40,413 nucleotides of DNA from contig JAOABK010000014.1 in NCBI GenBank assembly GCA_026418415.1, positions 1 to 40,413 of the forward strand. Reading direction: 5' to 3'. The DNA is from Pseudomonadota bacterium (GTDB lineage: Bacteria > CALINM01). Positions 2,494 through 40,413 of this stretch are shown in pieces. A model generated the notes under the pieces. It was given only the letters and a program-made list of their open reading frames with translations. It searched no databases and was not told where the DNA came from. Numbering within the stretch: position 1 is the stretch's first letter; every line of letters begins with the position of its first letter. The position numbers and the translations under genes are program-made.

Positions 2494-4659
2494 ATGCAAA
2501 AGTCCTTTGTAGAAGTTATATTGACAAATTGTAACATAAAACCTTTGTTTTATAGTGTTCCCGATGTTTTATCAGATAAGCTTGGGGTAGGTATGCTTGT
2601 TACTGTCCCGATAAAGGGAAGAACAGAAATTGGTTTTGTAATAAAAATAAACACCACACCACCAAAGGGTATTGATTTAGAAAAAATTTTAGATATCAAA
2701 GACCTATTATCACCAACTAAATATTTTGATGAAAAGTACCTTTCTTTTTTCAATTTTTCAGCATCCTATTATAGTTCAAACCTAAAGGACGTTATAAGAG
2801 CCTCCTTCCCTAAGTTAAGCCTCATAAAAAAAACAAGTAGTATCAAAATTAAAACGAAAAATCCTTTAGACCCAGTAATGGAGTTCATTGCAAAAAACAA
2901 AAACTGTACTATTGAAAAGATCCTCAAGGCCTTTCCAAATCTCGAATATAAGCATATCCATGAACTTCAAGAAAAGGGTTTTATTGAAATTGATACAAGC
3001 TTTATGTACAAGAAAATATTTCCGCCCCTTGAATATTTTAAACATGAGGAAGCACAAAAAAAATTAACATTAAATGAAGAACAAGAAAATTTTTTATTTA
3101 ATGTAATAAACAACCTTAATAAACCAAAGAATTACCTTCTTACAGGCAAAACTGGCTCTGGAAAAACGGAAGCTTTAATAAAGCTATCAGATATTTTATT
3201 AAAAATGGGGTATTCAGTATTATACCTTGTACCAGAAATTGCACTTGCTTCTTATATTTATAAAAAAATGTCTGAAGTTATAGATAAAGATAAAATATTT
3301 ATATGGCATAGTAGTTTACCTTCTAGAATACGAGGCTTTACCTTTGAAAAGATTGTAAATTCAGAAAATATAGTTATAGGAACGCGATCGTCTGTATTCC
3401 TTCCAATTAAAAATCCAGGCTTAATAATAGTTGATGAAGAGCATGATGCTTCTTATAAACATGAAGGGAGTTTCCCATATAATGCAAGGGATTTAGCAAT
3501 TGTTAGGGGAAAGATTTTTTCACATCCAGTTATCCTATCTTCAGCTACACCATCAATGGAGACATTACACAGAGCAAAGGAAGGATATTATAGTTATGTT
3601 TTTTTTAAAGAGAGATTTCACCCAAAAAAACCAGAAATCATAATTGTTGATAGTGAAAAAAATAAACTTATCAATGGCTTCTTTTCTTATCTATTACTTG
3701 AAAACATAGAAAGTAACCTTACTAAAAATGAGCAATCTTTGATTTTTATAAATAGGCGCGGTTATGTACCCTATGTATATTGTAATGAATGCAAAAATTT
3801 CATTCTATGCAAATTTTGCACAGTACCCCTTACATGGCATAAGAGAAAAAATATTTTAACCTGTCACAAATGTGGATATACATTGCCTTTTCAAACATCA
3901 TGTTTAGTATGTAATAGTGATAAACTATCATTTTTAGGAGCAGGAACAGAAAAAATAGCAGAAATGCTATCCCATATATTTCCTTCTGCAAAAATTATAA
4001 AGATTGATAGAGAATCTACAGAAAGGATAGAGTTTTTCAAAAAAGAATTGTCACACATTATTGAAGGTAAATACGATATTATTGTATCAACTCAAATATT
4101 AACTAAGGGACATCATTTTCCCAAGCTTACACTTGTTGGTGTTCTTTTAGGTGATCAGGGATTAAGTTTGCCAGATTTTAGAGCACAAGAAAGAACCTTT
4201 CAATTGCTAACACAAGTTTTTGGAAGAACTGGAAGAGAGCTCCCTGGAAGAGTTATAATACAAACTTCCATGCCAGACGCTCCAGCGATAAAGTATGCGA
4301 TTAATGAAGATATAGGTGATTTTTATGAATATGAAATAGATCTTAGAAAACAAACTTTCTTTCCTCCTGTTTCTCGACTACTTATAATAAAGGTCTTATC
4401 ACTTGATGAGGATAATGCTATAAAAACATCAAGACTTTTGTATGAAAGTGCAAAAAAATTTGCATATTTCAAAGATTTACAGATTTTTGAACCTGTAGAA
4501 GCACCCATATATCGGGAGCGTGGATACTATAAGATGCACATTTATTGTAAATCTGTGAAGGCACAAACACTCGTAAAACTTTCAAGTTTTTTAAAAAATT
4601 CAATAAAACAGAAAAACTCGAAAATTTACTTTGATATAGATCCTGTCAACCTAATATAG
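2494..4659 (+). CDS. priA: Primosomal replication restart helicase PriA
   Basis: 721 aa from ATG 2494. The ORF is open upstream to 2383, but those 37 residues are hydrophobic, unlike PriA, and run through the promoter and the opposite-strand pilin start, so I reject them. PriA is a 3'-5' DNA helicase that reloads DnaB at stalled forks. Visible motifs: Walker A TGKTGSGKTE near residues 216-225, DEEH box VDEEHDASYKHEG near 312-324, the eight-cysteine zinc domain from about residue 430 to 472 (CNEC, CKFC, CHKC, CLVC) inserted in the helicase core, and QILTKGHHFPKL plus the RxxGRTGRELPG segment (TQVFGRTGRELPG) of the second helicase lobe. Length is normal for a PriA. It is a single gene divergent from the pilin operon. 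It probably gives a leaderless mRNA. Confidence 0.95.
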   Translation: MQKSFVEVILTNCNIKPLFYSVPDVLSDKLGVGMLVTVPIKGRTEIGFVIKINTTPPKGIDLEKILDIKDLLSPTKYFDEKYLSFFNFSASYYSSNLKDVIRASFPKLSLIKKTSSIKIKTKNPLDPVMEFIAKNKNCTIEKILKAFPNLEYKHIHELQEKGFIEIDTSFMYKKIFPPLEYFKHEEAQKKLTLNEEQENFLFNVINNLNKPKNYLLTGKTGSGKTEALIKLSDILLKMGYSVLYLVPEIALASYIYKKMSEVIDKDKIFIWHSSLPSRIRGFTFEKIVNSENIVIGTRSSVFLPIKNPGLIIVDEEHDASYKHEGSFPYNARDLAIVRGKIFSHPVILSSATPSMETLHRAKEGYYSYVFFKERFHPKKPEIIIVDSEKNKLINGFFSYLLLENIESNLTKNEQSLIFINRRGYVPYVYCNECKNFILCKFCTVPLTWHKRKNILTCHKCGYTLPFQTSCLVCNSDKLSFLGAGTEKIAEMLSHIFPSAKIIKIDRESTERIEFFKKELSHIIEGKYDIIVSTQILTKGHHFPKLTLVGVLLGDQGLSLPDFRAQERTFQLLTQVFGRTGRELPGRVIIQTSMPDAPAIKYAINEDIGDFYEYEIDLRKQTFFPPVSRLLIIKVLSLDEDNAIKTSRLLYESAKKFAYFKDLQIFEPVEAPIYRERGYYKMHIYCKSVKAQTLVKLSSFLKNSIKQKNSKIYFDIDPVNLI

Positions 4660-4871: not shown

Positions 4872-5683
4872 CCTTTTACTCCAATAAGTAGATTAATTAG
4901 TCCATCAAGTTGTTCCTTAGAATAATAATCGATAATAATGCTTCCTTTTTTCTTTTTTCCCTTAATCGAAACCCTTGTTTGAAATATTGACGAAAGCCTA
5001 TTTTCTAAATCTTGAATAGTAATATCTTTCTCTTTTCTAACCTTTACTCTCTTCTCTGCTTCCCTTACTGTTACCTTTTCAGATAACATTTTTCTAAAAA
5101 GTTTTTCTCTTTTATCTTCATCTTCAATAGCAAGGAGAGCTCTTCCGTGACCTTCTGTTATTTTGTTCTCCTGAATTGCAATCTGCATATGTTCTGGTAG
5201 TCTAAGCAACCTCAATACGTTAGCTATGCTACTTCTACTTCTTCCAACAATTTCACTTAGTTCTTCTTGGGTATATTTAAATTCATCCACTAACTTTTTA
5301 TAGGCATGAGCTAATTCAATGGGATTAAGATCTTCTCTTTGTATATTTTCAATAAGTGCTGATTCCATTATCTGCTTGTTGTTCATCTCCTTTACTATAA
5401 CGGGCACTGTTTTAAGACCTAAAATCTTTGCTGCCCTCCATCTTCTTTCACCTACAACAAGTGTATATTTATCTTCCCTGCCTTTTGTAACTATTAATGG
5501 CTGGATTATACCCTGTGTTTTTATTGATTGTACAAGTTCGTTTAATTTCTCTTGATTAAACTGCTTCCTTGGCTGATAGGGATTTGGTTCTATTTTTTCA
5601 GGATCAATCTCGATAACTTCCAATCCCATTTCTGCATCAATTAAAGCAGACAGTCCTCTTCCCAGTGGCTCCTTCTTACTCAT
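4868..5683 (-). CDS. parB: Chromosome-partitioning CTPase/DNA-binding protein ParB
   Basis: 271 aa. The N-terminus (KKEPLGRGLSALI) is the ParA-interacting peptide. NPYQPRK at 34-40 begins the ParB/Srx fold, GERRWRAAKILGL at 78-90 is the CTP-binding and clamp-closing motif, ALIENIQREDLNPIE is at 109-123, and the HTH is TQEELSEIVGRSRSSIANVL at about 138-157. The C-terminal segment is a dimerisation region. ParB loads at parS, spreads as a sliding clamp and organises the origin region with ParA. A near-consensus parS lies at 7008-7023 in the same operon. The start overlaps the parA stop by 8 nt and the gene ends in a 4-nt overlap with the zinc-ribbon gene. All expected motifs are intact. Confidence 0.95.
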   Translation of the reverse strand: MSKKEPLGRGLSALIDAEMGLEVIEIDPEKIEPNPYQPRKQFNQEKLNELVQSIKTQGIIQPLIVTKGREDKYTLVVGERRWRAAKILGLKTVPVIVKEMNNKQIMESALIENIQREDLNPIELAHAYKKLVDEFKYTQEELSEIVGRSRSSIANVLRLLRLPEHMQIAIQENKITEGHGRALLAIEDEDKREKLFRKMLSEKVTVREAEKRVKVRKEKDITIQDLENRLSSIFQTRVSIKGKKKKGSIIIDYYSKEQLDGLINLLIGVKG

Positions 5684-38758: not shown

Positions 38759-40413
38759 TAAGCAATCCCTTCTAAATGAGGTCTAAATTCCTACGGAAAG
38801 AGTTGGAAAAAACAATTGCGATTTGTGAGTCGCAATCCCTTCTAAATGAGGTCTAAATTCCTACCGTGTCAGTACGACAGGAGGCGTCTGTGAAGAATTG
38901 GTCGCAATCCCTTCTAAATGAGGTCTAAATTCCTACGGGCTCTTCGATTGAGGCAATTAGATTTTATCCAGACAGTCGCAATCCCTTCTAAATGAGGTCT
39001 AAATTCCTACCAGTTGCCATTATCAGAACTAAAAATATGAAGGTTGGTCGCAATCCCTTCTAAATGAGGTCTAAATTCCTACTGAAAAGAAATTAGAGGA
39101 GGTGAAAAAGTTAGGGTCGCAATCCCTTCTAAATGAGGTCTAAATTCCTACAAGGAGGTGATTTTTTGATGAAGAGATTTGAGTACTCGTCGCAATCCCT
39201 TCTAAATGAGGTCTAAATTCCTACTGAATTCTGTGAGCAAAAAGCTACAGAATTATTGTCGCAATCCCTTCTAAATGAGGTCTAAATTCCTACTTTGCGA
39301 AGAAAAAGCGGAACAACTATTAAAAAACGTCGCAATCCCTTCTAAATGAGGTCTAAATTCCTACGAAAATCTCTTCAGAGAAGAACTACTCTTACATGAT
39401 GTCGCAATCCCTTCTAAATGAGGTCTAAATTCCTACCACAAAATTAACATTGATTTTCTCTATTGTATTAATGTCGCAATCCCTTCTAAATGAGGTCTAA
39501 ATTCCTACCTACATTGTATGAAGTTATTTAGTATTGAAGTTGAGGTCGCAATCCCTTCTAAATGAGGTCTAAATTCCTACGGATTGCTGGGCGAATGGTG
39601 TAAGATAGCAATCCTGCAAGTCGCAATCCCTTCTAAATGAGGTCTAAATTCCTACTCGACGAAGAGGTGGAATTTTGCACACGTAAGGCTCAGTCGCAAT
39701 CCCTTCTAAATGAGGTCTAAATTCCTACTTAATGAGGTCAGAACACAGTTAGAAACCGTCAATAGTCGCAATCCCTTCTAAATGAGGTCTAAATTCCTAC
39801 CTGAGTAAAAAGATTGAAGAAGAAATTAGCTTTTGGTCGCAATCCCTTCTAAATGAGGTCTAAATTCCTACGAAGTATAGTTATAAGTGTAAAGGTAACA
39901 AAAGAAGTCGCAATCCCTTCTAAATGAGGTCTAAATTCCTACGGGTAAGCGAGTAGGGTAGGGTAAAAAGGAGGTGATGCTAAGTCGCAATCCCTTCTAA
40001 ATGAGGTCTAAATTCCTACGAATCCAAAGGGAAACACATAGAAGTCCACTTCTATGTCGCAATCCCTTCTAAATGAGGTCTAAATTCCTACCTGGAATTG
40101 CTGGTTGGAAGACCAGCAAAAAATTAAGTCGCAATCCCTTCTAAATGAGGTCTAAATTCCTACTCACTATTGCACTACATAAAAAATTAAGATTTATGAA
40201 AATGTCGCAATCCCTTCTAAATGAGGTCTAAATTCCTACTTGGAAGACTTTAAAAAATTCTTGAATAAAGACGGGAGTCGCAATCCCTTCTAAATGAGGT
40301 CTAAATTCCTACAGTATCAAAAATAAAAAAAAAAGGAGGGAAAAGTCGCAATCCCTTCTAAATGAGGTCTAAATTCCTACTTACCAATGGTGGCATTCTT
40401 ACCACCAGCGATT
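38759..40413 (-). CRISPR. CRISPR array, 23 repeats, 22 complete spacers, continuing beyond the window
   Basis: The 36-nt repeat begins GTCGCAATCCCTTC and ends TCTAAATTCCTAC on the plus strand, with TCTAAAT occurring twice inside, 11 nt apart. All copies are identical except the first (38759-38794), where GTC is replaced by TAA. Repeats start at 38759, 38829, 38901, 38975, 39047, 39116, 39189, 39258, 39329, 39401, 39473, 39545, 39620, 39693, 39765, 39836, 39907, 39984, 40056, 40128, 40204, 40277 and 40345. Spacers are 32-41 nt, mostly 33-38. I assign the minus strand as crRNA sense: there the repeat ends GGGATTGCGAC, close to the ATTGAAAC tag of many type I and III repeats, and the degenerate copy becomes the terminal, leader-distal one. 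No cas gene or leader is in the window, so the type is open. Confidence 0.97.

Follow-up and report, generated by a model that had tools for sequence, protein, structure and literature searches.

Strand-biased CRISPR arrays in a genome with a reverse transcriptase-linked adaptation module

Coding-strand bias has been reported in a survey of type III and type I-A/I-B arrays (PMC8482600), and type III arrays of Thermus are strongly biased by selection without any reverse transcriptase (RT) (PMC7515739). Such a bias is known from both type III and type I-B arrays, and selection by itself can produce it. The origin and orientation of RT-linked spacers are an open question in the field (PMC5513706, PMC5576922). 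In the CART-CAPP modules of Caloramator australicus and Geobacillus lituanicus, an N-terminal group II-type RT is fused to a CAPP_A primase-polymerase, beside cas1 and cas2, and the genome also carries type III cas genes (PMC10415136, PMC8211822). The genome studied here has these features as well. Unlike in those modules, a TPR region lies between the RT and the primase, the csm effector is on another contig, and the primase keeps the DxD and H residues that it has in common with Marinitoga CAPP. Tested on its own, the PP domain of CaCART-CAPP gave no detectable activity, and that of the Geobacillus protein has likewise been proposed to be inactive (PMC10415136, PMC8211822).

The RT-Cas1 systems of Marinomonas mediterranea and Arthrospira (PMC5576922, PMC5513706) resemble this one in their RT-linked adaptation, type III effector and untraced spacer source, but Cas1 is separate here, and the new spacers of Marinomonas are only moderately oriented. 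RT-less CAPP-Cas1 loci of Desulfobacterota (L087, L122/L199 and L123) share the repeat 3′ end GGGATTG(C/A)GAC, the CAPP-cas1 order and a sense fraction of about 0.95; they differ in that no RT was found in them and AGGAGG is not above its permutations. As in the biased type III arrays (PMC8482600; Thermus, PMC7515739), crRNAs of the present array would be antisense to mRNA for nearly all spacers, although the bias is read here from the spacers themselves, without protospacers.

The array and its polarity

The window, meaning the whole 40,413-nucleotide stretch analysed, is contig C55 of a draft genome (G000) of 2.03 Mb in 161 contigs; only three genomes of the same phylum were in the searched set. 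Its high-coordinate end is occupied by an array of 23 repeats (GTCGCAATCCCTTCTAAATGAGGTCTAAATTCCTAC) that contains 22 full spacers and a further one truncated where the contig stops.

38759..40413, minus strand: CRISPR array, 23 repeats of 36 nt; crRNA strand minus; leader-distal part, the leader being seen on C77 and C81
38759..38794, minus strand: terminal leader-distal repeat; crRNA 3′ end degenerate, GC TTA and not GCGAC, with 3 mismatches

Contigs C77, C81, C99 and C161 carry the same repeat, and the array on C120 is built from a related one. Two array families and two cas1 modules are present together in the genome, which makes any pairing of the window array with the RT-CAPP module indirect.

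Leader-distal repeats are usually degenerate. The crRNA is made from the minus strand, because the arrays on C77 and C81 have a common leader, alignable for about 180 nt up to the first repeat, on the side matching the high-coordinate end of the window array; because degeneracy marks the repeat at 38759 as well as the final ones on C161 and C120; and because the minus-strand repeat ends in ATTGCGAC, close to the ATTGAAAC handle reported for type I and III repeats (PMC8482600). The flanks on the opposite (trailer) side, in C55 and C99, have nothing in common with the C77/C81 leader or with each other. The sequence-only reading had deduced this polarity from the repeat, and the conserved leader and degenerate distal repeats agree with it.

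Effector and adaptation genes of the genome

A type III system had been predicted elsewhere in the genome, and a type III-A system was found on C85 (L042 11829-18422), where csm1-csm2-csm3-csm4-csm5-cas6 form one locus with complete csm1-5. Its products match Csm1 (493 bits), Csm2 (70 bits), Csm3 (236 bits), the RAMP/Csm4_C and Cas6 domains, and also Csm5. The Cas10 sequence contains a GGDD motif, and Pfam reported no HD domain in it. Other genes of this contig (L042 1559-6925) look, by eye, like McrBC- and AbiEii-type defence genes. Type I-B-like cas6, cas7, cas5 and cas3 lie on C119 and C66, where cas3 is seemingly split by the contig break; the matched proteins are Cas3, Cas5b, Cas7 and Cas6b, and a 377-aa gene at the cas8 position gave no match. 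The cas genes of the genome are thus not limited to DNA-targeting ones, as csm1-5 is present, though type I-B genes are too.

On C120 (L033 1454-5623), a 966-aa RT-TPR-CAPP protein is followed by cas1 and cas2, and a short array of its own adjoins them. The protein comprises an RT with a YCDD motif, TPR repeats and a CAPP primase-polymerase (NF040561, 478 bits), whose primase domain keeps residues invariant with Marinitoga CAPP, including both D of DxD and the H. The sequence-only reading had invoked RT-Cas1. An RT does stand beside cas1-cas2, but it is fused to the CAPP primase-polymerase and not to Cas1, which is encoded by a separate 331-aa ORF whose start lies 4 nt before the RT-CAPP ORF ends. 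A second module on C33 has the order cas6-cas2-cas1'-cas1-cas2. In G000, a degenerate Cas1 paralogue of 270 aa lies between cas1 and a second cas2 (L034 16106-16918); it is found at the same place in G002, a genome of the same family and a different genus (L148 9704-10528). Comparison with Cas1 by hhalign gave a probability of 85% at 15% identity, with the catalytic E and H seemingly lost, and the paralogue matched no Pfam, NCBIfam or PADLOC family. G002 also encodes, beside type III genes and a short array (L147 9193-11730), a Cas6-RT-Cas1-like protein of 845 aa in which the RT motif YADD reads YAGN, which points to a dead reverse transcriptase.

CAPP-type adaptation genes accompany this repeat family: in Desulfobacterota, repeats with the 3′ end GGGATTG(C/A)GAC are found next to CAPP-cas1 loci, and for two of these loci the contig also encodes Cas10. 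Since this repeat end is common to CAPP-cas1 loci and is absent from G002, despite a C33-type cas1 module there, the RT-CAPP-Cas1-Cas2 module on C120 is the likelier partner of the window array. The leader of the C120 array differs from that of the window array family.

Orientation of the spacers

The purine counts quoted in the sequence-only reading were exact (27/33 in spacer 5, 24/34 in spacer 1 and 28/32 in spacer 22). On the plus strand, 20 full window spacers are purine-rich and one is purine-poor (p = 2e-5). Across all arrays of the genome (45 distinct spacers), the strand opposite the crRNA has more than half purines in 40 spacers and fewer in 4 (p = 1.7e-8), and none of 200,000 random orientation flips matched the observed purine excess. 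AGGAGG occurs in 8 spacers on the plus-equivalent, mRNA-sense strand and in none on the opposite strand, and is followed by a start codon in several. A codon log-likelihood model trained on host genes, which classified 81% of held-out host fragments correctly, prefers the plus strand in 39 of 46 spacers, giving a sense fraction of 0.97 (range 0.81-1.00).

Open frames, on which the earlier argument had relied, are by themselves worthless as strand evidence, since purines predominate in stop codons and the minus strand is no less open: at least one open frame occurs on the plus strand in 96% of window spacers and on the minus strand in 100%, with a shuffle expectation of 80%, and the mean number of open frames per spacer, over all spacers, is 1.56 on plus and 1.67 on minus. 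AGGAGG and codon likelihood are stronger evidence than what had been listed. The plus strand of the spacers thus reads as mRNA-sense by composition and codons, and a sense bias is present. The earlier claim that crRNAs are antisense to mRNA is borne out by purines (40:4), AGGAGG (8:0) and sense fraction (0.97), as far as spacer sequence can indicate.

The following spacers carry ribosome-binding sites or resemble other spacers.

38937..38974, plus strand: spacer 3 (GSSIEAIRFYPD), homologous to a C161 spacer (ASSIEAIKFYPD)
39152..39188, plus strand: spacer 6, ribosome-binding site and start codon (AAGGAGGTGATTTTTTGATGAAGAGA..., MKRFEY)
39225..39257, plus strand: spacer 7 (EFCEQKATEL), plus-frame similarity to spacers 8 and 13, singly near chance
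39294..39328, plus strand: spacer 8 (CEEKAEQLLKN), plus-frame similarity to spacers 7 and 13, singly near chance
39656..39692, plus strand: spacer 13 (DEEVEFCTRKA), plus-frame similarity to spacers 7 and 8, singly near chance
39943..39983, plus strand: spacer 17, AAAAGGAGGTGATG, ribosome-binding site with start
40240..40276, plus strand: spacer 21 (LEDFKKFLNKDG), resembles a C99 spacer (IEGLKKFLSSN), singly near chance
40313..40344, plus strand: spacer 22, A-rich run then AAGGAGGG, ribosome-binding site with the start cut off

The pairs SSIEAIRFYPD/SSIEAIKFYPD and TEFKN-type keep one plus frame and differ mostly at third positions; for spacer 3 and its C161 homolog, synonymous third positions account for 3 of the 5 differences within the common frame. 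Two spacer peptide pairs scored at least 34, against none in shuffled peptides. Other pairs (EFC..KA, KKFL) scored lower, with 6 pairs at 28 or above against 1.4 expected. The C161 spacer of which window spacer 3 is a diverged version occurs twice within its own array (L039 1-450).

Protospacers were found neither in the own genome and family genomes nor in phage records, and seven codon-degenerate spacer patterns gave none in IMG/VR. Nor was any protospacer seen that spanned an exon junction or was restricted to RNA. Since no protospacer was found, the targets and the target strand are read from composition only. Three matches from a distant-mode search of phage records were at chance level and were discarded. 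Within a parB-like gene of the window, 22 of 23 bases at 5078-5100 match the end of a C81 spacer (E = 0.013), probably by chance. A 35-nt site on C114 of G000 (2981-3015) matches the leader-proximal C120 spacer at 86% (E = 0.007) and is possibly a diverged protospacer.

Comparison with RT-less arrays

CAPP loci, 39 in number, were found with a hand-made pattern, whereas a two-sequence CAPP alignment search of the genome contigs gave none; none of 20 Bacilli regions with CAPP-like matches contained cas1 or an array. In three large RT-less CAPP arrays, purine-rich and purine-poor spacers number 42:21 (L087), 33:17 (L122) and 29:11 (L123), and no RT match was found near their cas1. Pooled over 187 spacers, the RT-less CAPP arrays that share this repeat family in Desulfobacterota have a sense fraction of 0.95 (0.82-1.00). 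They come from draft genomes of another phylum that are less AT-rich and where the codon model separates strands less well, classifying 68% of held-out fragments correctly. Among RT-linked arrays, the comparison covers essentially those of this genome and L084 (4 spacers); RT-Cas1 homologues also occur on plasmids. As these arrays are equally biased, RT is not needed for the bias, and antisense orientation alone does not show RNA-derived acquisition. The bias accordingly lends no support to the earlier idea of RNA-derived acquisition.

The content of the spacers was compared post hoc. AGGAGG is present in 8 of 46 spacers and in 0.8% of host sense 36-mers; in phage sense strands the value is 2.3% (THSA-485A; p = 9e-6 against the spacers) or 1.8% (GVE2; p = 1.4e-6). 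The spacers thus carry ribosome-binding sites 8-10 times as often as do the sense strands of these two comparison phages, although the true phages may have denser or stronger sites. The 14 A/G permutations of AGGAGG are not enriched in spacers of this genome, and in the RT-less arrays AGGAGG is no higher than its permutations.

Origin of the bias

The window most probably holds the leader-distal part of a type III-compatible array whose guides are antisense to invader transcripts, the bias having been set by selection, perhaps together with RNA-templated capture. A transcript starting at the leader end, beyond 40413 on the minus strand, would be processed to crRNAs with the repeat-derived 5′ handle ATTGCGAC. 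Because the mRNA-sense strand of each spacer lies opposite the crRNA, the guides would base-pair with the transcripts of invaders and could in this way arm the type III-A Csm complex of C85. The capture of new spacers would most likely fall to the RT-TPR-CAPP protein of C120, acting together with Cas1 and Cas2. The most economical cause of the near-complete sense orientation would be that selection favours spacers functional in type III interference, perhaps with a contribution from RNA-templated capture.

Spacers may instead be taken from DNA in both orientations, the bias being wholly due to type III selection and the RT being unused, so that the C33 cas1-cas2 may serve the arrays. Thermus provides the precedent (PMC7515739), and the genome has another cas1 module, which includes cas6. 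This is a rather unlikely account, as G002 has a C33-type module without this repeat family, and such repeats adjoin CAPP-cas1 elsewhere.

Alternatively, RT-CAPP may copy invader mRNA, and the cDNA may be inserted directionally, in the orientation that yields antisense crRNA, so that the bias would arise during acquisition rather than through selection. The RT (YCDD) and a CAPP with conserved DxD and H stand beside cas1-cas2, in vitro, CART enzymes prime on RNA and supply Cas1-Cas2 (PMC10415136), the sense fraction is near 1, and the excess of ribosome-binding sites has no counterpart in the RT-less arrays when AGGAGG is set against its permutations. The sense fraction is, however, the same in RT-less CAPP arrays of this repeat family, DNA templates are preferred by CAPPs lacking an RT (PMC8211822), and new-spacer orientation in Marinomonas RT-Cas1 is only moderately biased (PMC5576922); this origin is accordingly doubted.

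Were the arrays to serve the type I-B effector, the preference would be that reported for I-B arrays. The Cas3, Cas5b, Cas7 and Cas6b genes on C119 and C66 could use these crRNAs, and the coding strand is also preferred by I-A and I-B arrays (PMC8482600). Nevertheless, the repeat family is common to CAPP-cas1 loci, two with Cas10 on the same contig, and sharing with type III may itself cause the bias of type I arrays, as the survey suggests (PMC8482600), which makes a type I-B explanation quite improbable.

A more speculative and still less probable idea is that RT-CAPP takes spacers straight from the RNA of invaders and favours translation-initiation regions, some targets being small-genome or RNA viruses of this bacterium. 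If true, this would explain the ribosome-binding-site enrichment, the synonymous re-acquisition at homologous sites and the lack of a DNA match. Hot-spring riboviruses of bacteria have SD motifs before nearly every gene (PMC10847044), so that, if this host is a thermophile, some targets may be RNA viruses. Finally, a compositional bias, with an integrase inserting purine-rich ends one way irrespective of coding, would fit the spacer purine fraction of 0.62, above host gene sense strands (0.57) and two phages (0.59, 0.57), but is very improbable given that AGGAGG is enriched and its 14 A/G permutations are not, that start codons follow AGGAGG, and that homologous spacers keep one reading frame.

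Implications

Selection in type III interference, perhaps aided by RNA-templated capture, is the preferred explanation, and the RT-less CAPP arrays provide a matched control against over-reading antisense orientation as RNA capture. Orientation can be scored from the spacers alone, by purines, ribosome-binding sites and codon likelihood, without a known protospacer. Should ribosome-binding sites prove enriched in other RT-linked arrays as well, this signature would reveal RNA capture directly and cheaply.
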